From positions 1-39,634 of the forward strand of contig JAUWNN010000002.1 of assembly GCA_030612625.1 (NCBI GenBank): a stretch of DNA of 39,634 bases, given 5' to 3'. A program made the translations under genes and the position numbers. Within the stretch, counting starts at the first letter, position 1. The number at the start of each line of letters is the position of its first letter. The stretch comes from Caldifarciminota bacterium. GTDB lineage: Bacteria; Hydrothermota; Tepidihabitantia; Tepidihabitantales; Tepidihabitantaceae. The notes below the pieces were generated by a model that did no database searches, was not told the DNA's origin, and saw only the letters and a list, made by a program, of their open reading frames with translations. This document shows positions 1 through 39,138 of this stretch, in pieces.

Positions 1-146
1 AGGCCGCAACTCAGGGCTTCTGACCGGGTTAGAGACCGGAATGGCCAAAAACATAACTCCGCGGATAACACGCTGACGAAGCGAGGGTTACAGCGTTATT
101 CCTGCAAATGCCCACTGTCCAGGGGGCAGTGGGCCCCCCCCTCCCC

Positions 147-482
147 GTCGATATGGCCGTTGTGACGGTTACCGACTCGGGCGGCCAGGCCGGTGTCGTC
201 CTGGTGCGTTTGATGGCAGGCGTCACGAAGTCCGACACGGTGTTCGTCACGCCCCTTGCTCTGACTTCGGACGCGGTCGTCGTGCTCTGGCTCGTCATGA
301 CATCCGGCATGAGCACCGGAAAGAAGCTCAGGCTGAGAACGATCATGGCCTTCGCCACGAAGCCCGACATGACACCCATGAACCTGCTCATCACCATCAC
401 CGTCACGACCCTCGACAAGACCGCCGCTACGACGACCCGGCCCTACCTTTGGATGTGGAGTGCAACGACTGCGGCGTTGCGC
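147..482. repeat. Degenerate 12-bp periodic array A, about 28 units, consensus roughly nnCGncanGnnn
   Basis: Cutting from 147 every 12 bp gives gtcgatatggcc/gttgtgacggtt/accgactcgggc/.../ctcgtcatgaca/tccggcatgagc/.../cccgacatgaca/.../accgtcacgacc/ctcgacaagacc; CG at positions 3-4 and G at position 9 recur in most units. Confidence 0.75.
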
Positions 483-764
483 AATGGGAATTAAGGGGAC
501 ACAATATCTAACTCGGGCCGGGCCGGGGTCAGGTCTTGAATCTTGCGATTCGCGGAAGCCAGACGGCCGCACGCCGCCGCTTGACACGCGGGCGAATTGG
601 AGTAGAAGTTGCCCGTGGTGAACGATGACGGCCCGGCAGGAAAACGGGGGTGGTCCCTAATTTTCCCTAATTTTCCCTCGAATTCTAGCCCGAAATGCCC
701 AGCCTGCCCGCGCCGTTCACTCAGCAGTTGACTTGTATTCACCTGCCGCTACGATTCGGCTGAG

Positions 765-3122
765 ATGGCTAAGGTGACCGGCAAGTACGTGTTGTCGCTT
801 CTCATCACTGCAACCTGCCTGGTGGCGGCGCAACGGCTTCCCGTGGAGGCCCACCTCGTCTGGAGCAGGGATTTCTTCCGGGTTGCGCCCGCTGACCTGG
901 ACGGCGACGAGGAAGACGAACTGGTCACGATGCCCACCTGCACGAGACTCAACGTCCAGGACCAGCGCCTGTATCACCTGGCAGGCGGGTGCGCCTTCCC
1001 GCCCGGTACGTTCGAGCAGGGGTATCTCATTGGCGGCTCTGCCATGGCGGGTCTGTGGGTGACGTACGTGCGCGACGATTCGCTCTTCCTGCAGCCGGTT
1101 GGGAGGCGCGCCTACTTTGTCGCAGCCGGCCGTGATACTGCGCGGGACTGGGATGGGCACGCCGTTCAGGTTGACGTGCTCGACCTCGACGCGGATGGCA
1201 GGCTCGAAGCAGTCATTGCGGTCGCCTCCGGGTATGGACTCGCACCGCGGGGCATCGTCGTGCTCGACTGGGAATCGGGAAACAACCTCTGGCACCATTG
1301 GTGTGGCCCCAATCCCCAACGCCTGCTCTGCGCCGACATCGACTCGGACGGCAGGACTGAAATCCTGATGAGCACAAGTGCACCGGGCAACGGCAATTCG
1401 GACAACGGCACGGACGACCTGCACACGCACGTCTCCCTGCTTGGCTGCACAGGACAGGAGGTCTGGCGCACGAGCCTGGGCACGTACTCTTCCTCTGTGG
1501 TGCCCGCCTGGCTCACGCCTACCGAGAGCGAGGGCACCGTGCTGTTTGTCGGCGAAACGGGCAGTCCTGCCGGTGGCCGGAATTGTGACAGCGTCTTCGT
1601 GCTGGACCCCAACACCGGCCGGATTCTCCGTTCCGCCTGCCATCGCGAGTTCAACAGCGATTACGCGGTGCTCCACGACTCGTCCGGACGAAGCTTGGTG
1701 GCGTTCTGGTCATCCGATGAACTCCTGCTCATTGACGCAAACCTGGCGCTGGTCAGGCGCTCCCGTCTGCCGGGAACGCACGACTTGCAGGTTGCCGCCG
1801 GCCAGTTCTCAGGAACCGGTCGAGATGAACTGGCGGTTCTGCCCGGGACCGGCCGGCTGCAAGTCTATGACCTCGGCCTGAGGCAGCTCGTGGACATCCC
1901 GGTCGGGCATTATGCCAACTTGATACCGGTACGAGCAAGCGACCGCACGCGCCTGATGCTGCACAGGTCCTATGAAGACCGTGTCAGTTGCACGCTGTTT
2001 GACTTCCGCCCGGTCCCATTGCTCGACAGGGGAGTCCCTTTGGGATGGTCACTGGCCGCGGGCGCACTGCTGCTGGTCGTGTTCGGCATCGTGCTGGTCG
2101 CAGTACGCCTGCGCCAGACCCGGGACGTGCGCCTGCTTGTCCGCGGCCTGACCGGCCGAGCCGGGGTTATTGAACTGGACCGCAGAGGCCGCGTGACAAG
2201 AACCAATCGCAAGGCCCGGGATATCCTTCCAGGAGGTCATGCTGCCAACGGAAACGAGGCACTTCCGTCGGAGGGTCCGCTCGCCCCGCTCGCCGGGCTG
2301 GTCAGAGCGGTGCTGGCCGAACCGACGGACGTATCATCCCGGGAGATGCCGGTCTCCATCGGTCCGGACCAGACCCTGCTCGCTCGAGCCACCAGGGTGA
2401 AGTCAGGCGTGCTTCTCACCCTGGAAGACATCTCTGCAGTTGAGTACATGCGCCGAGTCAAAGCCTGGCTACCGGTCGCTCAGAAGCTGGCCCACGGCAT
2501 CAAGAACCCGCTCACGACCGTTCTCCTCACCGCCCAGCGCATCGGCAAGCAGGCGGACGACGAAGGCACCCGTGGCTATGCAGCCTCCATCGTGCGAGAA
2601 GTGGGCCGGCTTCGCAGAGTGTCAGACAGCTTCATGAAGCTCACCCGGCTTGAGGCTCCCAACAAGATGCCTGTCAACCTCAACGACATCTTGTCAACCG
2701 CTGTCACCAGGTTCCGAGAAGCACCTGGTGTTGACATCAAGCTCAACCTGGACCAGAACCTGCCCGCTGTTCCGGTTGACCGGGAGCACATTACAGCCGC
2801 ATTCACCAATGTCATCGAGAACGCTGTCTCGGCCATGCCTGTCGGCGGAACCCTGACCGTGACAACGTCCCTGCAGAAGAAGGACGATGGCCATGTGGCC
2901 AGAGTCGTCATAGCCGACACAGGAAAAGGCATTCCTGAACGCTACCTGTCCAAGGTGTTCGACCCCTACTTCACGCTTAAGGAAGGCGGGACTGGACTCG
3001 GCCTGGTGATAGTGAAGAAGATTGTCGAAGACCACGGCGGTGATATTCGCATAGACAGCCAGGAAGATGTTGGCACCTTTGTCACCATCGAGCTTCCTGT
3101 CACCGACAAGCGGCTGGCATAG
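765..3122 (+). CDS. Membrane sensor histidine kinase with extracytoplasmic FG-GAP/VCBS-like beta-propeller
   Basis: Signal peptide, repeated DLDGDxxDE/DIDSDGRTE motifs, TM helix near residue 430, H-box (LAHGIKNPLTTVLL), HATPase motifs (NVIENAVSAM, DTGKGIP, GGTGLGLVIVKKIVEDHGG). Confidence 0.9.
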   Translation: MAKVTGKYVLSLLITATCLVAAQRLPVEAHLVWSRDFFRVAPADLDGDEEDELVTMPTCTRLNVQDQRLYHLAGGCAFPPGTFEQGYLIGGSAMAGLWVTYVRDDSLFLQPVGRRAYFVAAGRDTARDWDGHAVQVDVLDLDADGRLEAVIAVASGYGLAPRGIVVLDWESGNNLWHHWCGPNPQRLLCADIDSDGRTEILMSTSAPGNGNSDNGTDDLHTHVSLLGCTGQEVWRTSLGTYSSSVVPAWLTPTESEGTVLFVGETGSPAGGRNCDSVFVLDPNTGRILRSACHREFNSDYAVLHDSSGRSLVAFWSSDELLLIDANLALVRRSRLPGTHDLQVAAGQFSGTGRDELAVLPGTGRLQVYDLGLRQLVDIPVGHYANLIPVRASDRTRLMLHRSYEDRVSCTLFDFRPVPLLDRGVPLGWSLAAGALLLVVFGIVLVAVRLRQTRDVRLLVRGLTGRAGVIELDRRGRVTRTNRKARDILPGGHAANGNEALPSEGPLAPLAGLVRAVLAEPTDVSSREMPVSIGPDQTLLARATRVKSGVLLTLEDISAVEYMRRVKAWLPVAQKLAHGIKNPLTTVLLTAQRIGKQADDEGTRGYAASIVREVGRLRRVSDSFMKLTRLEAPNKMPVNLNDILSTAVTRFREAPGVDIKLNLDQNLPAVPVDREHITAAFTNVIENAVSAMPVGGTLTVTTSLQKKDDGHVARVVIADTGKGIPERYLSKVFDPYFTLKEGGTGLGLVIVKKIVEDHGGDIRIDSQEDVGTFVTIELPVTDKRLA

Positions 3123-3125
3123 AGA

Positions 3126-4511
3126 ATGCACGGCAAGAAGCAGATGACAAAGCGCATCCTGGTTGTTGATGACGACAAAGGCATCCGGGACATAGTCCGT
3201 GATACCCTGTCCAGCGAAGGGTACGAAGTAGTCGAGGCATTCGACGGAACCGAGGCGGTCAAACGTGTCGAAGAGAACGACCTGAACCTGGTCCTGCTCG
3301 ACTACAAGCTTCCTGACTTCGATGGCATCGAAGTGCTGCGCAAGGTCAGAGCTCTGAGACCGAACCTGCCCATCGTGTTCCTCACCGGCCACGCAACCAT
3401 CGACCTTGCTGTTGAGGCAACAAAGCTCGGAGCCTGGGACTTCCTGGAGAAACCGGTGGACGACGACCGTCTACTGGTAACGGTCAGAAACGCAATCGAA
3501 AGGGACATACTTGCCCGCGAGGTAGAAACCCTTAAGGACGAACTCCTCGGCAGGTATGAGATGGTCGGGGTCTCAGACCCGATGCAACAGGTGTATGAGA
3601 TGATTCGCAAGGTCGCGCCTTCCAAAGCAAACGTCCTTATCCTTGGCGAAAGCGGTGTGGGCAAGGAACTCGTTGCCAGGGCCATCCACTACCAGGGTCC
3701 ACGGTCAGGCAAGCCGTTCGTGAAACTCAACTGCGCCGCCATCCCCAAGGACCTGGTCGAAAGCGAGCTGTTCGGACATGAGAAAGGCGCGTTTACTGGA
3801 GCGGTCGCAGCCAAGCAAGGCAAGGTGGAACTGGCCGATGCGGGCACCCTGCTCCTGGATGAAGTCGGTGACATGAGCCTGCAGGCCCAGGCCAAGTTGC
3901 TCAGATTCCTGCAGGAAGGCGAGTTTGAGCACGTCGGTGGAACCAAGACTCTAAGTGTTGAAGTGCGCGTCATGGCTGCTTCCAACAAAGACCTGAACAA
4001 GGCCATCCGGAATGGCGAGTTCCGCGAGGACCTCTACTACCGTCTGAACGTCGTGACAATTGTCGTCCCGCCACTCCGGGAACGAAAGCAGGACATTCCG
4101 CTCCTTGCTGACCACTTCCTGAGCAAGGCCTGCGACGAAGACGGGTTGCAGCGCAAGGCCCTTACGGACGGGGCAAAGGAACTGCTCGCCAACCAGTCCT
4201 GGAAAGGCAACATCAGGGAACTTGAGAACTTGGTCCACAGAATTGCAGTTCTTAGGGATGAACCCATCCTCACTGCAGACTGCATCATGCCGTTCTTGAA
4301 TGAAGTGTACTTCACGCCCCAGCGCGGCCAGGCTCAGACTCTGCGCGATGCCAGACAGGAGTTTGAGCGAGACCTCATCCTCAGAGTCTTGTCCAAGAAC
4401 CAGTGGAATGTGGCTTCGGCTGCCAACGAACTCGGTGTCGAGCGCACCTACCTGTACCGCAAGCTCAAAGACCTGAACGTCACCCTGCCCGTTTCCAACA
4501 GCAACGAGTAG
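3126..4511 (+). CDS. Sigma54-dependent response regulator, NtrC family (receiver, AAA+, HTH)
   Basis: Receiver ILVVDDDKGIRD/LLDYKLPDFDG, Walker A GESGVGKE, GAFTGA loop, C-terminal Fis-type HTH. Alternative ATG at 3144. Confidence 0.95.
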   Translation: MHGKKQMTKRILVVDDDKGIRDIVRDTLSSEGYEVVEAFDGTEAVKRVEENDLNLVLLDYKLPDFDGIEVLRKVRALRPNLPIVFLTGHATIDLAVEATKLGAWDFLEKPVDDDRLLVTVRNAIERDILAREVETLKDELLGRYEMVGVSDPMQQVYEMIRKVAPSKANVLILGESGVGKELVARAIHYQGPRSGKPFVKLNCAAIPKDLVESELFGHEKGAFTGAVAAKQGKVELADAGTLLLDEVGDMSLQAQAKLLRFLQEGEFEHVGGTKTLSVEVRVMAASNKDLNKAIRNGEFREDLYYRLNVVTIVVPPLRERKQDIPLLADHFLSKACDEDGLQRKALTDGAKELLANQSWKGNIRELENLVHRIAVLRDEPILTADCIMPFLNEVYFTPQRGQAQTLRDARQEFERDLILRVLSKNQWNVASAANELGVERTYLYRKLKDLNVTLPVSNSNE

Positions 4512-4696
4512 CCCGGACGGGGTCCCAAGTCCCCCGGTTCTGTCTGATTCTCACAACAACTCTGTTGTCTGAATCATACAAGAAGGCCTGCATAACTCGC
4601 CTTGTTGAGCCATCTGCTTGAGTCCAGATACCCTAAGAGATTGCTGCATCTCAACATAGAACAGGTTAAGCTCAGTTCTCTGTTGTCCGCCAGACG

Positions 4697-4712
4697 CGGC
4701 ACGCCCGGTGCA
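4697..4712 (+). promoter_or_regulatory. Possible sigma54 (-24/-12) promoter
   Basis: cGGcacgcccggtGCa: GG and GC separated by exactly 10 nt, about 110 bp upstream of the 4822 CDS and downstream of an NtrC-type regulator gene. Imperfect match to TGGCAC-N5-TTGC. Confidence 0.3.
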
Positions 4713-4821
4713 GTCCTACTGAGCGATGAGAGAAATGCAGAACAGGCGGCACCGAGCCTCAGACGAATCTAGGCATCCGAGGTGCGCGGATGCAAACTAT
4801 ACAACAGTGTAGGAGGCTTGC

Positions 4822-6303
4822 ATGAAAAGTCAGTGTAGACAGATGAGGAACTCCCTCTTGTATGGCATTGTGATACTCCTCTGGGCAATGACCGTTTCGG
4901 CCCAACCACCGGGTACCTTATGGGAGAAGACATACGGAGGAACGAGCTTTGACAGAGCCCTCTCCGTGCAACAGACCTCAGATCACGGCTACATCATCAC
5001 AGGATTGACGTATTCGTATGGCCAGGGTGAGTGCGATGTCTTCCTGGTAAAGACAGATGCGAATGGGAATGCCCTCTGGACAAAAACCTACGGAGGTGCA
5101 GATGAAGATGTAGGTTTTTCAGTTCGACAGACCCCAGACAACGGATACATCATCGCAGGATACACAGGGTCATTTGGTGCAACTGTTGATGTTTATCTGA
5201 TAAAGACCGATGAGAATGGCGATACGATCTGGACACGGACATACTTAGGCCCAGGTGGTGGTGAGGATGTCGGCCAGTCGGTTCAGCTGACTCGTGACGG
5301 TGGATACATCATTGCAGGATACTGCGAACAATTCAGTAGCAAATATGTCTACTTTTTGAAAACAGATGCAGCTGGCAATCGCCTTTGGAGAGGGACATGC
5401 GGCGCGACTGAAGATGATTACGGCTTTTCAGTTGACACGACTTCAGATGGGGGATACATCATCGCAGGACGGACGAGTTCATACGGTTCAGGTGATGAAG
5501 ACGTGTACCTTGTCAAGTTGAACGGGAGCGGTAACGTTGTTGGGTTCCAGACATATGGCGGGACTCGCGGAGACAGAGGCTACTCGGTTCAGCAGACTTC
5601 CGACGGAGGGTATATCATCGCGGGGCGTACGTCCTCCTTCGCGGAGGTTGCTGACGTCTACCTCATCAAGACAAACAGGTTCCTGGATACGGTCTGGACA
5701 AGGACCTACGGAGGCGCAAGCGTAGATGAGGGCTATTCAGTCCAACAGACTTCTGACGGCGGATACATTGTCGCAGGAGAGACGTATTCGTTCGGGGCAG
5801 GTGCCATGGACGGGTATCTCATACGGACGGACCCAGGCGGTGATACCTTGTGGACGAAGACATACGGGGGTTCGGGGTGGGATGTATGTTGGTCGGTTCA
5901 GGAATGCCATGATAATGGATACATCGTTGCCGGGTACACTAGGTCATTCGGTCACCCGGATGGGGATTTCTATCTCATCAGGACAGAGCCCTACGTTGGC
6001 ATTTGGGATGAGAGTTTTCCTGAAGTCATACCGGCGATTTCACAGACAGCACCGAATCCCTTCAGCCGACGGACCACGATTCGGTATTCGTTGGCCAAGG
6101 AGACGGATGTTGACCTTGCGGTTCTGGATGTCACCGGAAGGGTCGTGCGGACTCTGGTCCGAGCGAAGCAGAAGGCCGGAGTCTACAAGGCGACCTGGGA
6201 TGTCGGCGGCGTCCCTCAGAAGCGTCTGCCCAAGGGCGTCTACTTCTGTCGTCTCAATGCCGGTGAGTTCACAGCGACCAGGAAGATGGTGAAGCTGGAG
6301 TAG
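4822..6303 (+). CDS. Secreted repeat protein (TSDGGYIIAGxTxSxG repeats) with C-terminal sorting domain
   Basis: Signal peptide, about 8 repeats of ~50 aa (SVQQTSDGGYIIAG...DVYLIKT...WTRTYGG), C-term ISQTAPNPFSRRTTIRYSLA...GVYFCRLNAGEFTATRKMVKLE. Confidence 0.9.
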   Translation: MKSQCRQMRNSLLYGIVILLWAMTVSAQPPGTLWEKTYGGTSFDRALSVQQTSDHGYIITGLTYSYGQGECDVFLVKTDANGNALWTKTYGGADEDVGFSVRQTPDNGYIIAGYTGSFGATVDVYLIKTDENGDTIWTRTYLGPGGGEDVGQSVQLTRDGGYIIAGYCEQFSSKYVYFLKTDAAGNRLWRGTCGATEDDYGFSVDTTSDGGYIIAGRTSSYGSGDEDVYLVKLNGSGNVVGFQTYGGTRGDRGYSVQQTSDGGYIIAGRTSSFAEVADVYLIKTNRFLDTVWTRTYGGASVDEGYSVQQTSDGGYIVAGETYSFGAGAMDGYLIRTDPGGDTLWTKTYGGSGWDVCWSVQECHDNGYIVAGYTRSFGHPDGDFYLIRTEPYVGIWDESFPEVIPAISQTAPNPFSRRTTIRYSLAKETDVDLAVLDVTGRVVRTLVRAKQKAGVYKATWDVGGVPQKRLPKGVYFCRLNAGEFTATRKMVKLE

Positions 6304-6337
6304 TCGCCGGGAGGTGACCGGAAAGGGCCGGCGATGC

Positions 6338-6361
6338 GGCGGGGAGGTTCGGCTCCCCGCC
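6338..6361 (+). terminator. Strong hairpin downstream of 4822..6303 (terminator-like, no clear U-tract)
   Basis: ggcggggag gttcgg ctccccgcc, 9-bp perfect arms. Confidence 0.45.
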
Positions 6362-6469
6362 GATTTCAATCGGCTTGGGTAGGACCGTGGCATTATGCTC
6401 CAAGCCAGTCCAGGCTTCGTTTCCCGTGAGCGTTTGACTTCCTTGCTACTGTGGCTAATCTATGATGAG

Positions 6470-6757
6470 ATGATGGATATCCGGTTTCACACGGACCCGC
6501 AAACAGGCCTTTCGCATGTGCACAAACACGGGGTGACTGAGAGGGAAGTAGAGGAAATCCTGTCCCGGCCAGGCGAAGACCGGCCCGGCCGCGAAGGTTC
6601 ACGAGTTGCTATCGGCCGGACGCAGGCAGGGCGCTATCTCCGCGTCATCTACGTACCTGACCCCGAGCCTGATAGCCTGTTTGTGGTGACAGCATATGAG
6701 CTGCGAGGGAAAGCGTTGTTGGCTTTCAGAAGACGCAGGCAAAGGAGAAGAAAATGA
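6470..6757 (+). CDS. DUF4258-like putative toxin
   Basis: MMDIRFHTDPQTGLSHVHKHGVTEREVEEILSRP...GRYLRVIYVPDPEPDSLFVVTAYELRGKALLAFRRRR; overlaps a small downstream ORF. Confidence 0.65.
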   Translation: MMDIRFHTDPQTGLSHVHKHGVTEREVEEILSRPGEDRPGREGSRVAIGRTQAGRYLRVIYVPDPEPDSLFVVTAYELRGKALLAFRRRRQRRRK

Positions 6758-6957
6758 AGGAGCGGAGATTTCCACCTGGCTGGAATGAAGAGCGAGTTCG
6801 TCGTGTCTTGGATCACTATGAACGTCAGAGCGAAGAGGAAGCAGTTGCTGAAGATGAGGCTGCGTACGACCAAGACGGCCAGAGCATGGTCGAGATTCCC
6901 TGCGAACTCGTTCCCAAAGTCCGGGACTTGATAGCTCAACACCAGCCGCAGAAATAG
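6754..6957 (+). CDS. Small acidic protein, putative antitoxin partner
   Basis: ATGA overlap with the upstream toxin-like ORF; 67 aa, acidic, MKERRFPPGWNEERVRRVLDHYERQSEEEAVAEDEAA. Confidence 0.6.
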   Translation: MKERRFPPGWNEERVRRVLDHYERQSEEEAVAEDEAAYDQDGQSMVEIPCELVPKVRDLIAQHQPQK

Positions 6958-7115
6958 AATTCTCAGAAGCATCGGCGCAGCTTGCAGAGCCACTTGGCGG
7001 GTGGTTCCGGGCCAAGAGCGGCAAGCTGGTTCCGGCTGGCGTCTACTTCTGCACGCTTGAGGCTGAAGGCCGAAGCGTCACGTGCAAAGTGGTGCTGACC
7101 CGGACTGCTGAGTAG
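6957..7115 (+). pseudogene. Orphan 3' remnant of a C-terminal sorting domain
   Basis: Open frame EFSEASAQLAEPLGGWFRAKSGKLVPAGVYFCTLEAEGRSVTCKVVLTRTAE* matches the sorting-domain ends of neighbouring secreted proteins (GVYFCRLNAGEFTATRKMVKLE); no start or upstream domain. Confidence 0.7.
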
Positions 7116-7310
7116 CCAGGTACAGCCTTCAGCAGCGGACGTCCGAGATTGGGAATTCCGGGGACGCAATACCTATCTGTCCTACCCGCATTCGCGGCAG
7201 CCATCGCCTGAATTTAGGCAAAGACAAATGCCTTGCCAAGGAGACGCGGAAGGCATGATAGCTTACGGCTGACAGTCAACGGCTGACGGCTCACAGCCAG
7301 CCGGAAACGG

Positions 7311-7538
7311 CTAGACTGCCACAAACCGGCGGATTTCTACCTGTGTGCCTGAGCGAACCGTTTGCTCGGCAGCCTTGAGCAGTTGGTCTGTTACTTCTTC
7401 GTCAACATAGTCTTCGCCGCAGTTCGGGCAAACCTGGGCCGGCACACCTTTGAACACCAGTGTCACCCCATTCCGCTCCAGAGTGACCGTGGTCGTACCA
7501 GGCTGCGTTTTGGCCTGCCTGCAAATAACACACTTCAT
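7311..7538 (-). CDS. YgiT-type zinc-finger putative antitoxin
   Basis: MKCVICRQAK...GVPAQVCPNCGEDYVDEEVTDQLL; two CxxC motifs; TAATG overlap with upstream DUF4258 ORF. Confidence 0.8.
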   Translation of the reverse strand: MKCVICRQAKTQPGTTTVTLERNGVTLVFKGVPAQVCPNCGEDYVDEEVTDQLLKAAEQTVRSGTQVEIRRFVAV

Positions 7539-7819
7539 TACCTTCTCCTTTTGTACCCGGCATTCCACTGGACAGGGTCGGGTTCATATGCAGTTATTAC
7601 AATAACCTCGTTATCGTCGTAATTGCTCGCTACTACCACATGAATCGGCCGAGCACCGCGCCATCCCAGAACCAGCCTGCTGGGGTATGGCGTGTCATCC
7701 GGGTAATCTTCTACTACCTCGCCGGTGGCGACAATCCGCCGCACATCCTCCATTGTGACCTTGCGCTGAAACATGCGCTGGAGAGCGTGTACCCGGAAAA
7801 CCAACCGTTCAGATGCCAC
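7538..7819 (-). CDS. DUF4258 domain putative toxin
   Basis: MASERLVFRVHALQRMFQRKVTMEDVRRIVATGEVVEDYPDDTPYPSRLVLGW...VVVASNYDDNEVIVITAYEPDPVQW. Confidence 0.8.
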   Translation of the reverse strand: MASERLVFRVHALQRMFQRKVTMEDVRRIVATGEVVEDYPDDTPYPSRLVLGWRGARPIHVVVASNYDDNEVIVITAYEPDPVQWNAGYKRRR

Positions 7820-7921
7820 AGCCCTGCCGATTCATCCATTGCGTGCTGCGCGCAACAACCATCACTTGAATCTAGGGCGAAATGACGGCTTGTCAAGGAG
7901 GCGGAGAGCTAGGACAGCTAT

Positions 7922-7976
7922 CGGCTCACAGCCAGCCGGAAACGGCCGGACTGCCATAAACCGGCGGATTTCGACC
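7922..7976 (-). pseudogene. Remnant copy of the YgiT antitoxin 3' end and downstream sequence
   Basis: 51/55 identity to 7287..7341; reverse strand reads VEIRRFMAVRP versus VEIRRFVAV* of the intact gene. Confidence 0.6.
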
Positions 7977-8146
7977 AGCACGACAGGAAGAACGTTGCGG
8001 ACTGGGGAAGTATGGAACCTGTAAGGCATGAGTGCGTTTGACTCGGCCGGAATCCTGGTTGTTGAACGAACAGCCGGTGGGCGCGGAGTGATGGAGCCCG
8101 GTCGAGCCTGGAACTGCCGCTGAGTTCAGAAGGCGCTACCGAAGGT

Positions 8147-8470
8147 GAGCCGGGTCCTGAACCTGGTTCTGAGCCGGAGGCTGAGCCTGGAACTGAGTTC
8201 GGAGTTGAACTCGGGGCTGAACCGGGTCCTGACTTCGGGACTGGAGCCCGGGCTGAGGCTGGTCTTGAACCCGGTTCTGATTTGGCAATTGACTAAGCAA
8301 CTGAAATTCCAAGTGATATGCCAACTGACATCCGTTCTGACCCGGAAACTGAGCCGGGTCCTGACCTCGGGCCTGACTCTGGAGCTGAACTGTGGGCTGA
8401 ACCAGGAGTTCAAAGGGGGAGTGACCCCCGGGGTGACTTCCCGGAGCACCCTGAGAAGCGAATCCTGAGC
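8147..8470. repeat. Degenerate 12-bp periodic array B, about 27 units, consensus roughly GAnnnnGGnnCT
   Basis: gagccgggtcct/gaacctggttct/gagccggaggct/gagcctggaact/gagttcggagtt/gaactcggggct/gaaccgggtcct/gacttcgggact... constant phase to 8470; one in-frame TAA at 8294. Confidence 0.85.
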
Positions 8471-8699
8471 TAAGTTCCCAAGCCACAAGCAATTAACTTC
8501 CCAGTTACTGAGACATGCAATTTCTTTGGTGGTTTTCAGGTCCAGCGGCAAATAACATTACAGGGGTAGATGAAGAGGGCCTCTGTCCGTGACGGCCGCA
8601 GAGGAACTGCATGGGGTTGGGAAGAGGAGGAACAAAGAGGCCGGTGCATGGTTTCAGCACTGGCATGAGTATAGGCGTCCTCAAACAAAGGAGGAAATC

Positions 8700-9074
8700 A
8701 TGGCAAAGGACGCAGACAAACGAATCAAGACCTGGGAAGCGAAGTTCAACACCCAGCGCGTCAAGGAAACCCTGGACGACCTGCGCGGACAGATGCTCAT
8801 TCGGGTGCATGGAGCCTTTGCTGCCTTGTGCTCGATGGAGGAACAGGTAAGACAGGTACTGAACAGCGCCGCTGTGCCGACGATTCTGTACGTCGCCTAC
8901 CTGGACTATGCCCGGCAGTTGTACAAGCTGTCGATGCAGAAAAACATCTCGGGCGACTCCTTTGCCCGCGAAGCCCAGGTGCTGCTTGAGAAGTGGCAGG
9001 GCCGGAGTCTTGACCCTGAAATCCTCGCGAAAATTCTGCACGATGTGTTTAACGTAGCCTTAACCGGAGGCTGA
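8700..9074 (+). CDS. Hypothetical protein (helical, 124 aa)
   Basis: AGGAGG-type SD (aaaggaggaaatcATG); MAKDADKRIKTWEAKFNTQRVKETLDDLRGQ... Confidence 0.7.
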   Translation: MAKDADKRIKTWEAKFNTQRVKETLDDLRGQMLIRVHGAFAALCSMEEQVRQVLNSAAVPTILYVAYLDYARQLYKLSMQKNISGDSFAREAQVLLEKWQGRSLDPEILAKILHDVFNVALTGG

Positions 9075-9126
9075 GGAAATCAGGTAGACACGCCGCGCCG
9101 GACCATGTTCTGGGCCAAGTCTGGAC

Positions 9127-9747
9127 CTAGACTTCAGGCTCGGGCAGGCTGAGCGCTTCGCGGATGGTGTCGGCAGAGAAGCCGCGGCGGACAAGCAGAG
9201 CGTAGAGTCGTCTTTTGCGCACATCCGGTTCGAGCCGGGCATAGCGAATGCGGTATTTCTTGACCAGTTCCTTTGCCCCTGCCAACTCGTCCGGCGCATC
9301 AGCCAGTGCCCGGTCAATCTGCTGTTTCTCAACCCCAAGCTTGAGGAGTTCGCCCCGCACCTTCCACTTGCCCTTTTTGCCGATGTTCATCCGGTCCTGG
9401 GCGAAGTCGTGAGCGAACTGGGCATCATCAACCAGCTTAAGCTCCAGCAAACGGGCAATCGCAGCCTCAATGATGTCAGGTTCGAACTTCTTGCGTGCGA
9501 GCCGGTCGCGCAGTTCCTTCACAGTCCTTGCCCGGTAGGAAAGCAGGAGCACCGCATACTCCTTGGCTTTGCGCAACTGTTCTTGCCGGGTGATGCGCTC
9601 GACATCCTGCTCGGTAAGCTCCATCCCAGGCTCAAGCCCGAGCTCAATTACCGTCTTCCCGTCCAGAGAAAAGGAATAAGCCCGGTCGAGGAAAACCGAA
9701 TACCGCCGGCTATTCCTTCTTTGGGGCTTGAGCCGGGTGACTTTCAT
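9127..9747 (-). CDS. recX: Regulatory protein RecX
   Basis: [56 protein letters not shown]; overlaps the recA 3' end. Confidence 0.9.
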
Positions 9748-10759
9748 TTGCGGCTAGCTTGGGCCTCGTGATATTCAGCTTCTCATACAGAGTCGCTTCA
9801 GCCTTTTCCGCCTCTTTGGGATTCTCCTTAAGGAATTCAACCGCCGCATCCCGACCCTGGCCGATGCGTTTGTCTCCGTAAGCATACCAGGAACCGGACT
9901 TGGAAAAGATCCCGTGCTCCACGCCAAGGTCCACCAGTTCGCCGTACCGGGAAATGCCTTCGCCGTACATCAGGTCGAATTCGGCAATCCGGAACGGCGG
10001 AGCAGCCTTGTTCTTGACGACCTTCACCCGGCACCGGTTGCCGACAGCCCTGTCACCTTTCTTGATAGTGGCAATACGACGGATATCCAGCCGCATCGTC
10101 GCATAGAACTTCAGGGCCAGACCGCCCGGCGTAGTTTCCGGGCTGCCGAACATCACCCCGATTTTATGCCGAATCTGGTTAGTGAATATCGCGCAGGTCT
10201 TGGACCGGCTCGTAACACCGGAGAGCTTCCGCAGAGCCTGGGACATCAGCCGGGCTTGGAGCCCAACGTGCGCGTCGCCCATCTCGCCTTCGATTTCGGC
10301 CCTGGGCACCAGAGCCGCGACCGAATCAATGACAAACAAATCAAGCCCGCCCGAACGGGTAAGGATTTCGGCAATCTCCAGAGCCTGCTCACCGGAATCA
10401 GGCTGAGAAACCAGCAACTGGTCCACATCAACACCCAGAGCCCCAGCATAAGTCGGGTCCATCGCATGCTCGGCATCAATGAAAGCTGCCTTGCCGCCCA
10501 GCTTCTGGCACTGGGCGATTATCTCGAGCGCCAGCGTGGTCTTGCCTGAAGCTTCAGGCCCGAATATCTCGATGAACCGGCCGCGCGGCACCCCGCCGAC
10601 GCCGACTGCCGCATCAAGCCCGATTGAACCGGTCGGAATCGCCTCAAGCAAAACAGCGGCGTGCTCGTCGCCCAACCGCATAATCGAGCCTTTGCCGAAC
10701 TGCTTTTCAATCTGTCCCAGTGCGATGCCTAAAGCTCTGTCTTTGTCCTCTTTGGCCAT
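9710..10759 (-). CDS. recA: Recombinase RecA
   Basis: Canonical [55 protein letters not shown]. Confidence 0.99.
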
Positions 10760-10835
10760 AGTTCCTCCAGTGTTGCGAACAAGTCACCTGCTTGTGGCAG
10801 TATAGAAACGGCATGGTGAAAGTCAAGCATACGGA

Positions 10836-12215
10836 CTACTCTGCGACCACCACCTTGGCTTGATGAATCCCGTTGCCGGTATCAAGCACCAGGAAGTAGG
10901 CACCGGTCTGCAATCCGGCCCGGCCAAGAGGCACCGAATGGTTGCCGCAGTCAAGATTCGTGTCCACCAATTGCCTGACTTTTCTTCCTGCCGCATCGAA
11001 CAGGGAAATCCGCACCGGCCCGGGCTTGCGTATACTGAACCGGACCATTGCCGTGGAAAACACCGGATTGGGCGAAACCTCAAGCATCGGCATGGACTGT
11101 GGCTTTGGCCTTTCCTCAACCGCCTGACCCGCATCTTGCCTGATATGATAAACGTATTTGGTCTGGTTGCGGCCGTACGTCCCTTGCTCGAATATCACAT
11201 GGGCCCGGTCATGCGAATCTACACAGATTTTCGGCCCGGCGACCCTTATCGGGTCATACTGAATGACTGTGTCAGAAACCAGGGTCAGAACCGAGTCAGG
11301 CACTGGCTGGCCACCGGTATCCAAATCCCCGCGCAGCGCCGTGTAGAAGATATTGTGAGCACCGGTCGCACCATCAATATAAACGATTCTCAGATTGCCT
11401 GAACTGTCCAAAGCCACATTCGGGTCCCAGCGCGCCGAGCCCTGGGCAAACACCGACTGGCCCACCGCGACCGAACCATCAGGCCTGAGTTTAAGATAGC
11501 GTAACTGGTCACCCGTGGTCCAAGTCCGGAAAACGAAGTGAATGCAGGTGTCAGGCGTTGCGACAACTCGGGCATGGGACATGATGAAGATGCTCGCCAG
11601 CGTATCCCAGGCCCAGGTCGCGCCTTTGTCAGTAGAAATACCATAAACCAGATGCTCCCGGTCGTCAGCGTATGTGCAGTGCAGCCAGCCGCGTGGGTCA
11701 ATAGCAAGACTGGTGCGGCCGGACCACGGGTCTCCGGTATGGATGGTCTGCAACCAGACAATACGCTCACCGTTCGGCCCGAGCCGGGTGAACTTGATGT
11801 TGCTTCCCCGGGCATGGGTGGTGCTGACGCAGTTGGAATCATCAGTAACACCCGCGTCCATATGCGGGCTGTCAGCCGGGCCCTGACCCAGCAGCGGTTG
11901 GCCCACGTAGATGTTGTTGCCCTCCGCGTCCTGCACAATCGGCTGGTACTCATACCCGGGCCAGACCATGACCGACCGTATCGTGTCGCCATCATCGTTG
12001 AGCACATACAAGTCATGCTCAGGGTCGGACTGCGAGTAGTTGTACCGACAAACTGCACAATAGACCGTGTCGAACCGGTCAACCCCGATGCGGACATTCA
12101 GCCACCAGTAATCCCAGTTGACACGGGTAGCGACCAGCTTGCGCTCGGTCCAGAAACTCTGGGCCGCAGCAACCGCCACAAGAACCACCAGGCAAACCAG
12201 AACTGTCTTCTTCAT
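10836..12215 (-). CDS. Secreted protein with C-terminal sorting domain
   Basis: Signal peptide MKKTVLVCLVVLVAVAAAQS; C-term MLEVSPNPVFSTAMVRFSIRKPGPVRISLFDAAGRKVRQL...KVVVAE. Confidence 0.85.
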   Translation of the reverse strand: MKKTVLVCLVVLVAVAAAQSFWTERKLVATRVNWDYWWLNVRIGVDRFDTVYCAVCRYNYSQSDPEHDLYVLNDDGDTIRSVMVWPGYEYQPIVQDAEGNNIYVGQPLLGQGPADSPHMDAGVTDDSNCVSTTHARGSNIKFTRLGPNGERIVWLQTIHTGDPWSGRTSLAIDPRGWLHCTYADDREHLVYGISTDKGATWAWDTLASIFIMSHARVVATPDTCIHFVFRTWTTGDQLRYLKLRPDGSVAVGQSVFAQGSARWDPNVALDSSGNLRIVYIDGATGAHNIFYTALRGDLDTGGQPVPDSVLTLVSDTVIQYDPIRVAGPKICVDSHDRAHVIFEQGTYGRNQTKYVYHIRQDAGQAVEERPKPQSMPMLEVSPNPVFSTAMVRFSIRKPGPVRISLFDAAGRKVRQLVDTNLDCGNHSVPLGRAGLQTGAYFLVLDTGNGIHQAKVVVAE

Positions 12216-12667
12216 AATTGCTCCCTTCGGTTTATTGCTTTCACAGCCTGTTTCTCCAAATCATATAACCGGAACCGAATCGCCTTGAGCTTTGCGCTCT
12301 GGCGTGGCTCCTCTATTTTCAACACTTCCTCCAGCACCCGGGCCGCTTCTTCGGCCCGCTTGAAATTAGCCAGCAGCACATCTCCCAGGCTCTTACGCTT
12401 CAAGCGGTCGAATCGGTCACCTCGGCCCAAGTCCTTTTCTGAGTCCCGGCTCAGCACAACCCGCTTCCGCAACGCCCGGGTTTCTTTCCCGACCCGGGTC
12501 CGCAGCGCCCGGATACTGCGCAGCAACCCTTTGCGCTCAAGCCCGAGCCGCACCACATCCTCAACCACCCGCAACCCTTCGGTCAACCGGTTCAGGTTGA
12601 CGTCAATTATCCGGCCGGTCCTTGAGAACACCGCGTTTAGCTTACGCCTGACCGGCCATCTAGTCAA
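12212..12667 (-). CDS. ThiD2-like (ThiE-associated N-terminal domain) stand-alone protein
   Basis: IIDVNLNRLTEGLRVVEDVVRLGL...LRSIRALRTRV...LLANFKRAEEAARVLEEVLKI resembles the ThiD2 domain fused to ThiE in deep-branching bacteria. Confidence 0.65.
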   Translation of the reverse strand: MTRWPVRRKLNAVFSRTGRIIDVNLNRLTEGLRVVEDVVRLGLERKGLLRSIRALRTRVGKETRALRKRVVLSRDSEKDLGRGDRFDRLKRKSLGDVLLANFKRAEEAARVLEEVLKIEEPRQSAKLKAIRFRLYDLEKQAVKAINRREQL

Positions 12668-12688
12668 GGCGACAGCCCTGCAGGCTGA

Positions 12689-13648
12689 TTACGACTTTGA
12701 CCGCAGTGGAAAGATGTAAGCAAAGCTCCTCTTCCCTGCCGGTAGAATGCCCTTCAGATTCTGCTCTACCTGCTCCTGTGTGACGCCGCTCGCAACAATC
12801 GTCCCTTCAAGCGTGGCAAACCACCCTTGAGTCAGACCAATCTCACGTAATCGCCTCCGAAGCGACCGGGCGTGAATCCTGCCCATCTCCTGGTGGTAGA
12901 ATGCAAGCAAAGCTCTATTCTCACTGACCAGACGCTCTATGTCATCCCAGTGCCGCTCCCGGCTGTCCTTGGTTTTCAGATACGCCTTCAGCAATCTGAT
13001 GTCGCTGTCATCTGACGGCTCGGTCCTGAACGGCAGAGAAGTGATAATGCCGAATCTCGCCTTCGCTTCCGCATAGGCATCGGCGAAACTGCGCCGGAGT
13101 CCGGGACCGATGCGCACCCGATAGCTCTGGATGAGACCGTCGTACACGATTCGTCCTTTGAAAGGCAGAAGAACAGCCTCAAGCATCACCGGGGGCTCAA
13201 GCTGGAGAACTTCGTCAAATGGTTGGTTGAGCGCCAGCACCCCATAGGCCCGGTGTGGAGAACCGCTGTCCAGGAAGACCGCATGTTCCCTGAGGTACTT
13301 AAACAGAATAAAGTGGTCTTTGACAGAATGGTTCCAGCCTTGAACAATCTCCAATTCCTCAGCCGGGAATCCGCACGGATTCTCCTGGAGGTAGGAGTTG
13401 ATAAGCCCTCTGTTCCGCCACAGGACGTCTCTGATTCGGACCTTCGCCTCCAGTGGCAGTTTGTAGAATTGCTCCCTGGTCGTAACATTGCTGACCTCAG
13501 GCCTGCCGCCTCGGGCAGGCCTGAAGGATTCCGGATTCCGACCTGATTCCAATGTCAGTCCGACGTCCATCTTGTGCCGGTTGGCATAGACCAGAAGGTC
13601 AGTATGCAGTCTGTAGAACAACCTGACGTCTTCCGGGGATAGTATCAT
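12689..13648 (-). CDS. Conserved-looking hypothetical protein
   Basis: Single long ORF of 319 aa with normal composition. Confidence 0.75.
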   Translation of the reverse strand: MILSPEDVRLFYRLHTDLLVYANRHKMDVGLTLESGRNPESFRPARGGRPEVSNVTTREQFYKLPLEAKVRIRDVLWRNRGLINSYLQENPCGFPAEELEIVQGWNHSVKDHFILFKYLREHAVFLDSGSPHRAYGVLALNQPFDEVLQLEPPVMLEAVLLPFKGRIVYDGLIQSYRVRIGPGLRRSFADAYAEAKARFGIITSLPFRTEPSDDSDIRLLKAYLKTKDSRERHWDDIERLVSENRALLAFYHQEMGRIHARSLRRRLREIGLTQGWFATLEGTIVASGVTQEQVEQNLKGILPAGKRSFAYIFPLRSKS

Positions 13649-13688
13649 GTCCTGCCTTCGTCCGACTGCATTCCCATCAACGGCCTCC

Positions 13689-15380
13689 CTATCGCTTCAC
13701 CAGTTGCAGAACACCGGTGCTTGTATGGCCACCGGCCACGAGCCGGCAGAAATACGTGCCAGCTCCAACCTCTCTGCCGAAATTGCTTCTGCCGTCCCAA
13801 GTCGCAGTGTGCCGGCCGGACTCCTGCATCATGTTCACCAGTGTCCTGACCAGCTTGCCGGTGATGTCGTACACCTTCAGGCTCACGTCGGGCCCGGCTT
13901 TTGACTGATACCTGACCTCGGTCGACCGGGTGAAAGGATTAGGAAGGATCTGCACAAGTCCCGATCCGCCCCCTCGAACCCTGGAACCCTCGAACCCTGG
14001 AACCCTCTCCTCCGCGACCCCGACGTAGGTCCGGGGATTGAAGCCTGTGTTCCACAGGTTGTGCCGGAACGTGCCCCATTCGACGTTGCTCGTGTCATAG
14101 TCTCCAGCCAGGTCCCAGACAAAAAGCGAATCATTCAGTGAGCCGATGAGTATTTCCACGTCCCCATCTAGGTCCAGGTCGGCCAGGCACGGTGAGGACC
14201 TTGACCAGCCGGTGGGGAGCGGGTATCCGGGAAACAGCTCGCCAGTGTGATGCCAGACATAGACCCCGGAGTACGCACCACCGACAATCTCGATGTCGCC
14301 GTCGCCGTCAACGTCCCCAAGCGCCGGCGTGCCCTGCGTGAACGACCCGGTTTCCTGGGGCCAGCCTTCAACCCGCGTACCGTCGTGATGCCAGGCGTGC
14401 ATCTTGCGTCCCGCAGACCCGCATACAATCTCAATGTCACCGTCCCCGTCGATGTCGCCCAGGGCCGGTGACGAACGCTGATTCCCGTACCCCATCGACT
14501 GGGGCCAGCCTTCAACCGCGGTGCCGTCGTGATGGAATGCATACACCCGTTCCGACGTCGTGGCGAGGAATACCTCCAGGTCGTCATCTCCGTCAATGTC
14601 AGCCAGGGTCGGCGATGATTCCACCAGCCCGGATACATGAACCGGCCAGCCCGGAACGATAGTCGCGTCCGCGTTGAACGCCCACAGGCCGTGCGAATCC
14701 CTGCCCCCGACCACGATTTCCAGGTCGCCATCACCATCCAGGTCTCCAATCGCGGGCGTCGAAGCCACGGCAAAATGGTCAACCGAATCAACCGGCCAGC
14801 CTTCGTAGATGGTCCCGTCATGGTGGAAGACATAGAACCGGGCCGGGATATACCCGTTGTTGCCGTTCAGGTCACGGAACGTACCGATGGCAATCTCCAG
14901 GTCCCCATCACCGTCCAAATCAGCCAGGGCCGGCGAACAGGAAGCACCGTCATCGTCGCCCAGGGACTGCGGCCACCCTGTCTCCAGGGAACCATCGGAC
15001 TTGTACACGTACAGTTGCGACCGCTGGCCGGCAATCACGATTTCCATTTCATCGTCCTCGTCAATGTCGGCAATCGCCGCGGTCTGGCTGGCGTACCCGC
15101 CGACCGAAACCGGGAACCCGGTCGCCACGGTTCCGTCGTGGTTGTAGACCCGCAGACTCTGCCCGCCGCCGATCAGCACTTCCATATCACCGTCCCCGTC
15201 GATATCGGCAACCTGGGCCGACGTCTCACTGCTATTCCCGCCGGTGTGCACCGGGAACCCCTGCTGATACGGCGGGGCCGAATCGGTCGCAACACCAGGC
15301 TCACAACCACCTGCCCTGGCCGGCTGAACGAACGCACCGACCAACAACGCACCCAGGACTACAATCATGGTCCTAAACAT
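13689..15380 (-). CDS. Secreted FG-GAP/VCBS repeat protein with C-terminal sorting domain
   Basis: Many DIDGDGDxEI repeats; VQILPNPFTRSTEVRYQS...GTYFCRLVAGGHTSTGVLQLVKR. Confidence 0.93.
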   Translation of the reverse strand: MFRTMIVVLGALLVGAFVQPARAGGCEPGVATDSAPPYQQGFPVHTGGNSSETSAQVADIDGDGDMEVLIGGGQSLRVYNHDGTVATGFPVSVGGYASQTAAIADIDEDDEMEIVIAGQRSQLYVYKSDGSLETGWPQSLGDDDGASCSPALADLDGDGDLEIAIGTFRDLNGNNGYIPARFYVFHHDGTIYEGWPVDSVDHFAVASTPAIGDLDGDGDLEIVVGGRDSHGLWAFNADATIVPGWPVHVSGLVESSPTLADIDGDDDLEVFLATTSERVYAFHHDGTAVEGWPQSMGYGNQRSSPALGDIDGDGDIEIVCGSAGRKMHAWHHDGTRVEGWPQETGSFTQGTPALGDVDGDGDIEIVGGAYSGVYVWHHTGELFPGYPLPTGWSRSSPCLADLDLDGDVEILIGSLNDSLFVWDLAGDYDTSNVEWGTFRHNLWNTGFNPRTYVGVAEERVPGFEGSRVRGGGSGLVQILPNPFTRSTEVRYQSKAGPDVSLKVYDITGKLVRTLVNMMQESGRHTATWDGRSNFGREVGAGTYFCRLVAGGHTSTGVLQLVKR

Positions 15381-38068: not shown

Positions 38069-38440
38069 GGGTAAAGCACCTTGTCAAATACCGAACCGGA
38101 CGCCTGGGCAAGTAACCAGCAAAGCGCATCCGCGGTCTGATTGGCAAACGCCTTGATAGGCCGCGGCGCAAACAGCAGAAGGAACTGCAAGGCAGGCAGC
38201 AGGGAAAACGGCATGGCAAACGGCCCTGAAAACAGCCTGGCAAACTGCGGGGAAAGCCGCAGAATGGGCAGCAGACGAAGCGGCCGGTGAAGCGGCAAAG
38301 CAAGCAACTCAAGCAACCCCTGAACGAACAACCGATGAAACGGGATGCAGAACTGCCTGGATTGCGGCTTTCACGACGGTCAGGAAAGCGACTCAGAAAG
38401 CCATTCTACAAACGATTTGAGGGACTATCCAGGAGACGAC
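38069..38440. repeat. Degenerate 12-bp periodic array C, 31 units, consensus roughly nnngnaAacngC
   Basis: ttggcaaacgcc/ttgataggccgc/ggcgcaaacagc/agaaggaactgc/aaggcaggcagc/agggaaaacggc/atggcaaacggc/cctgaaaacagc/ctggcaaactgc/ggggaaagccgc/...; 372 bp = 31 x 12 without phase change. Confidence 0.85.
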
Positions 38441-38910
38441 CCCTATGTGTTGGTTCTGAGCCCCCATTTCTTCAGCTAAGTCCATAAATACCAGGACTTT
38501 CCGCCTGTTAGAAGGACATACCAGAAACCCAGAACCAGGGTTGATTCCAATCTACAGTATTGTAGACTGAAACATAAGGGAGCAAACAGGGTAGCGACTG
38601 TTTCACGCCTTGGTGCCGCTTGCCAGAAAACCCTTTGTTTGTTCTAATTACCCATGCGTATGAAAACGATGCGGCTTGAGAAACCAGCACTGGGCGCGCG
38701 GTCGACCGGCCCGGAGCCGCAGTTGGCGGTCCTGGGGATGGCCAGACAGCGGTCACCGGATAGGCCCGGATTTCTTATCATCGGATGTCCGCCGTATCGA
38801 CGATATGGCGTGAGGCCAGCTGGGCCGCAGACACCTCGGGCCAAACCGGGTATTCAGCCTAACCAACGTTGCTACGCTACTTAACCCAGCAAGACCACTT
38901 GAAGGGGGGC

Positions 38911-39138
38911 CATCCGGGGGGCAGCCCCGGGGATAACCCCGGGTATGCCCCTGGGTATGGCGATCCTGGCGGCCAGGATGACGGTTACCCAGGTCATTAT
39001 CCAGGTAACCAGGGCAGTGATTATCCGGGTGACCAGGCTGGCGGCTATCCAGGTGGTACGGGTAGCTATACAGGTGGTTATCCCGGTGGCGGCTGCCTTG
39101 GCCGCCATCCCAGCCACCCTCCGGGCCACTCAGGGAAG
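38911..39138. repeat. Degenerate 12-bp periodic array D, 19 units, encodes xYPG/xPGx tetrapeptides on +
   Basis: aaccccgggtat/gcccctgggtat/.../ggttacccaggt/cattatccaggt/.../gattatccgggt/.../ggctatccaggt; 228 bp = 19 x 12; ORF 38869..39384 reads HPGG SPGD NPGY APGY ... GYPG HYPG. Confidence 0.8.

Follow-up and report, generated by a model that had tools for sequence, protein, structure and literature searches.

Phased 12-bp arrays in a bacterial chromosome as candidate binding tracks for cellular homologues of the Adnaviria coat proteins

The window analyzed here, the whole 39,634-nucleotide stretch of contig JAUWNN010000002.1 from a Caldifarciminota bacterium of the WOR-3 group, contains four arrays of 12-bp units and a single detected gene of a family that resembles the coat proteins of Adnaviria (referred to below as coat-like). 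The cores of arrays A, B, and D differ from that of array C. The relevant features are as follows.

145 to 432, no strand assigned: array A, 24 units with a palindromic core.
8137 to 8436, plus strand: array B, 25 units with a core of about CCNGGNNCTGA; the coat-like gene at 8700 to 9074 lies downstream of it.
8700 to 9074, plus strand: coat-like gene, 124 amino acids, member of the adnavirus-coat-like family and partner of array B.
38069 to 38440, no strand assigned: array C, 31 units with a core of about GGCAAACNGC; a solo array, with no coat-like gene nearby.
38440 to 38447, plus strand: edge of array C, CCCCTATG; elsewhere arrays close with CCCCTATG or CCCCTGGGTA.
38441 to 38610, plus strand: flank of array C, similar to the sequence beside the solo arrays L051, L164, L192, and L198.
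38905 to 39132, no strand assigned: array D, 19 units with a strongly palindromic core; a solo array.

Array C, the locus of the finding, consists of 31 in-register units of 12 bp, and the coordinates and number of perfectly phased units given for it in a preliminary description were correct. Its period signal also stands against composition: z was 17.4 for period 12, compared to at most 5.6 for other periods, multiples of 12 excepted, and to a best value of 4.0 in 3,000 Markov simulations covering ten periods (6 to 15). Leave-one-out scores were above zero for 28 of the 31 units, compared to 7% of the 12-mers in the window, and the array ends sharply at 38440, the following unit (38441) scoring -18.4. 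The unit consensus is approximately NNGGCAAACNGC, with column 9 being C in 94% of the units, whereas some columns are near random, and conservation is more uneven than uniform decay permits. Some adjoining units show a 24-bp likeness. An inverted repeat, TCTACAGTATTGTAGA, lies downstream of the array at 38551 to 38566, within its flank, and the related sequence AGTATTGTATACT occurs in flanking DNA at L192, L193, and L198. The sequence CCCAGGGG was found 10 times in array flanks, compared to 0.33 expected, but is not universal. A universal boundary sequence, CCCCTGGG, was considered and rejected; it is enriched near arrays, yet it is present at just 5 of 41 gene-linked arrays.

Further analysis showed that such arrays are a general feature of this genome. 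In 567 kb, 27 period-12 arrays with many different cores were found (about 5 per 100 kb), and among periods from 5 to 40, 12 was the commonest. Other genomes of the same family likewise carry 12-bp arrays; most of the genomes analyzed are metagenome assemblies. For comparison, 941 kb from other phyla gave six weak cases (z of 7.0 to 8.2, versus up to 35 here), and 80 kb from more distant WOR-3 genomes that lack the coat-like gene gave none. Array length was about 14 to 31 units, with a median of 23 and a strict register: 310 of 314 five-unit blocks were in phase (76 arrays, 20.6 kb), and indels were almost absent. Because the arrays were detected by their phase, their edges were examined separately, and at 156 edges no out-of-phase resumption of the same core was seen within 150 bp. 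In the full contigs of one genome (G000), 12 of 18 arrays had an edge within 500 bp of a contig end, a region that makes up 12% of the sequence; arrays A, C, and D of the window are also at contig ends. The assembly was probably broken by near-identical array copies. The near-identical copies L057:1-180, L157:1-180, and L146:4057-4224 diverge at a common edge, and two of them are near a dispersed TTAAGGGGRCATAATACCTAACTCGG. Arrays may be copied or moved as units.

The consistent neighbor of the arrays is the coat-like gene. Among the genomes searched, this gene family was present in all 28 from one order but in just 1 of the other 119 from the phylum, and a profile built from 25 of its members (profile A1) had 32 matches in this genome, 35 in G004, and 48 in G017. 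Five genomes gave 105 matches to coat-like genes, and counting arrays out to 1.5 kb from these matches placed 55 upstream and one downstream; some arrays lie about 100 to 450 bp upstream of the gene. In a tree of 82 family proteins the array label was clustered, with one supported clade carrying arrays at 23 of its 25 genes; 46 of the 82 members had no detectable array, and the order-level members mostly lack one upstream. Few promoter-like sites in the interval between array and gene matched the pattern used. In two wider-order genomes (L222:817-1032 and L232:1297-1440) an array lies downstream of, or overlaps, the end of a coat-like gene.

Array B and the gene at 8700 to 9074 form a complete cassette. 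This cassette adjoins recX and recA. No coat-like gene was found beside recX in relatives, and therefore the cassette is not shared at that site; a conserved insertion site was rejected for the same reason. Near array B, at 7311 to 7819 on the minus strand, two small overlapping genes resemble a toxin-antitoxin pair, by eye a zinc-finger/HTH-like antitoxin and a DUF4258-like toxin.

When profile A1 was compared to all PDB sequences, the first five matches were adnavirus coats, with E values from 1.8e-5 to 0.07 (SSRV1, 1.8e-5; SIRV2, 4.5e-5; SFV1, 7e-5; AFV1, 0.07). An independent profile, made from ten more distant family members, ranked SIRV2 first (2.1e-4), and an hhalign comparison of the family with the SIRV2 coat gave an E value of 1.6e-6 over 109 columns. 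The Pfam family PF12193 was matched by 16 of the 25 members (best E value, 1.7e-6), two members scoring 22.9 and 20 bits, below the Pfam cutoff of 25.2. Judged from these alignments, which span about 110 residues, the coat-like family is homologous to the major coat proteins of Adnaviria. A profile of the array clade alone had no match in PDB, so that for this clade the homology rests on its position within the broader family and on individual matches such as L142 (E value of 8e-4 to PF12193). The window protein, searched alone, likewise gave no match. A single-sequence model was all-helical and poor (pLDDT of 49.9), and a fold search with it returned no matches.

This homology bears on the period of the arrays. 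In SIRV2 and AFV1, one coat dimer covers 12 bp of A-form DNA (PMC5517147), and the coat dimer repeat of PFV2 is likewise 12 bp of A-form DNA (PMC7189273), a step equal to the array period. The coat-like gene had no match in viral contigs and phage records. A virus or provirus identity was rejected, as these viral and phage records gave no match, every one of the 28 genomes of one order has the genes, and the array B cassette lies beside recX and recA. Neither SIRV2 nor the 15 kb of AFV1 examined contained a 12-bp array, and SIRV2 DNA showed no 12-bp signal. In AFV1 DNA (L358, positions 1 to 15000), matches at lag 12 exceeded those at lags 9 and 15 by 0.018 ± 0.005 (29 windows); this excess was not seen in SIRV2, so that a single genome shows it.

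The cores themselves follow the protein. In a comparison of 40 gene-linked arrays, the more identical the proteins, the more alike were the cores (Mantel P = 0.001), mean core similarity being 0.33 at less than 30% identity and 0.87 at 80 to 90%. Pairs from different genera, such as L265/L298 and L296/L246, have a common core despite near-saturated variable columns. The cores are also quasi-palindromic: palindromy was 0.588 in the 40 arrays compared to 0.446 in column-permuted controls (P = 1.5e-6), and 0.41 in array C compared to 0.22 expected (P = 0.002). Individually, it was significant for arrays A, C, and D but not for array B. Cores of this kind match what a symmetric dimer needs.

The explanation that we favor, with reasonable though far from full confidence, is that the 12-bp arrays act as tracks along the DNA on which cellular homologues of the Adnaviria coats would place one dimer per unit and seed a filament. 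One protein dimer would bind each 12-bp unit by reading a quasi-palindromic core of a few base pairs, and the roughly 14 to 31 strictly registered units would allow a short filament to form from dimers lined up side by side; within it the DNA would probably be turned to the A form, as with viral coats. Each protein lineage would have its own core, which implies many separate protein-array pairs per genome. Binding by the coat-like proteins, the dimer footprint, the filament, and its A form are what we infer from sequence. Arrays about 100 to 450 bp upstream of a coat-like gene may control that gene. As for the role, autoregulation or local DNA silencing would be our guess as the likeliest of several options, which include a selfish cassette. 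That the clade runs dozens of such sequence-specific filament systems with adnavirus-type coats, forming A-form filaments at set chromosomal places, we hold to be an even bet.

Alternatively, the arrays could be operators for some other DNA-binding protein, such as an Xre-type regulator, with the coat-like genes being just regulated neighbors. Helix-turn-helix genes do lie beside arrays in L152, L176, and L199. However, the neighbor found consistently is the coat-like gene, variation in the cores tracks that in the coat-like protein, and a step of 12 bp is what coats are known to take, which makes this reading unlikely. Less credible still is that the arrays are ordinary decayed minisatellites that arose by tandem duplication and then drifted, free of protein. 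The 24-bp likeness of some adjoining units fits such an origin, as does the fact that several arrays per genome are old duplicates of one another. However, neither even decay of the columns nor an accumulation of indels was found, and the uneven decay and near absence of indels argue against it. So do palindromic cores that are kept across genera and the 55:1 upstream bias, and it leaves unexplained why one period, 12, is common to unrelated cores.

It is very improbable that array C encodes a protein of tetrapeptide repeats or gives rise to a repeat RNA. Individual arrays have several open frames, and the tetrads, stop codons, and open reverse frames noted in the preliminary description are real; however, they are uninformative, since six-frame stop counts across the arrays are close to the column-shuffled expectation. 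Because of this, the arrays are taken as noncoding. A tetrapeptide-coding role was rejected, as no frame protected from stops was found in the same comparison over all arrays, and a structured RNA was rejected, as the window had no match to any Rfam family. The palindromic cores, in turn, fit double-stranded DNA. Finally, we give almost no credence to the tie first proposed between array C and the corrinoid/methyltransferase operon, whose first gene lies about 0.5 kb away with the array upstream: the adjoining methyltransferase gene is present in 59 of 61 searched genomes (ten same-family copies at 75 to 83% identity), yet a 12-bp array stands upstream of its orthologues in 0 of 10 same-family genomes and in none of the more distant ones, and 12-bp arrays are scattered over the whole genome. 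A conserved position linked to the operon, as expected of a regulatory element, was thus not found for array C in relatives. The accompanying suggestion that a phased array binds protein has fared better, although by another route than the operon.

We therefore return to the arrays as tracks for coat-like proteins. Since adnavirus coats wrap DNA in exact 12-bp steps and arrays lie upstream of coat-like genes, array C is probably a landing track for a coat-like protein rather than a switch of the neighboring operon. Its vicinity yielded neither a coat-like gene nor a remnant of one; the cores most like its own are those of solo arrays of another genus (similarity of 0.81), and none of the gene-linked arrays exceeded a similarity of 0.69. 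Solo arrays such as this one may be bound in trans or may be relics left after gene loss. By analogy, we infer that array C is a solo array of the same system and that its reader would be a coat-like protein. Some other solo arrays have the same core as a gene-linked array of their own genome, and these are mostly old duplicates. For instance, the core of array A has a similarity of 0.95 to that of an array on contig C285, in this genome, that precedes a fragment of a coat-like gene; array A is an old duplicate of that array. An exception among the same-core pairs was L136 and its partner, between which unit homology is absent.

No earlier description of such arrays, or of such a system, was found in the open-access literature, and the known systems that they resemble differ in several ways. 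Operator arrays and partition-site repeats are phased, are bound by dimers, and often lie by the gene of the binder, with few, longer repeats. The arrays share the phasing, whereas here there are 14 to 31 contiguous 12-bp units, one core per lineage, and many pairs. Like bacterial minisatellites (VNTRs), the arrays have short tandem units and some local 24-bp duplication; unlike these, they show uneven decay, a strict register, palindromic cores, and a fixed place upstream of a single gene family. Guide arrays of the CRISPR and TIGR types (PMC12045711) are also made of short units, in which some positions are constant and others vary; in comparison, the unit here is just 12 bp, the palindromic core is array specific, and the neighbor is coat-like.

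The closest likeness is to the Adnaviria coats (SIRV2, 3J9X; SSRV1, 6WQ0; SFV1, 6D5F; AFV1, 5W7G; PF12193), with which the coat-like family has sequence homology and whose dimer step equals the array period (PMC5517147, PMC7189273); an all-helical structure, as in the viral coats, is predicted for the coat-like protein by a poor model. Unlike the viral coats, the coat-like genes are found in bacterial chromosomes, singly or paired, with many paralogues per genome, and are linked to arrays, for which the viral coats have no known need. Adnaviruses have been described as unconnected to bacterial viruses (PMC10848233). If our explanation is true, an adnavirus coat family fixed in a bacterial order, and paired there with arrays whose period is exactly the coat step, would tie the A-form filaments of viruses to DNA-binding proteins of cells, in either direction. 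It would also mean that sequence-specific DNA filaments of a new kind exist, whose many natural protein-core pairs are amenable to bench tests. Some coat-like genes form tandem pairs or encode double-domain proteins of about 250 amino acids (L199:6410-7581 and contigs C125, C165, C161, C153, and C174 of G000), those in L199 sitting behind an Xre-type gene. These pairs and double domains recall the heterodimers formed by the two coat proteins of AFV1 and PFV2.
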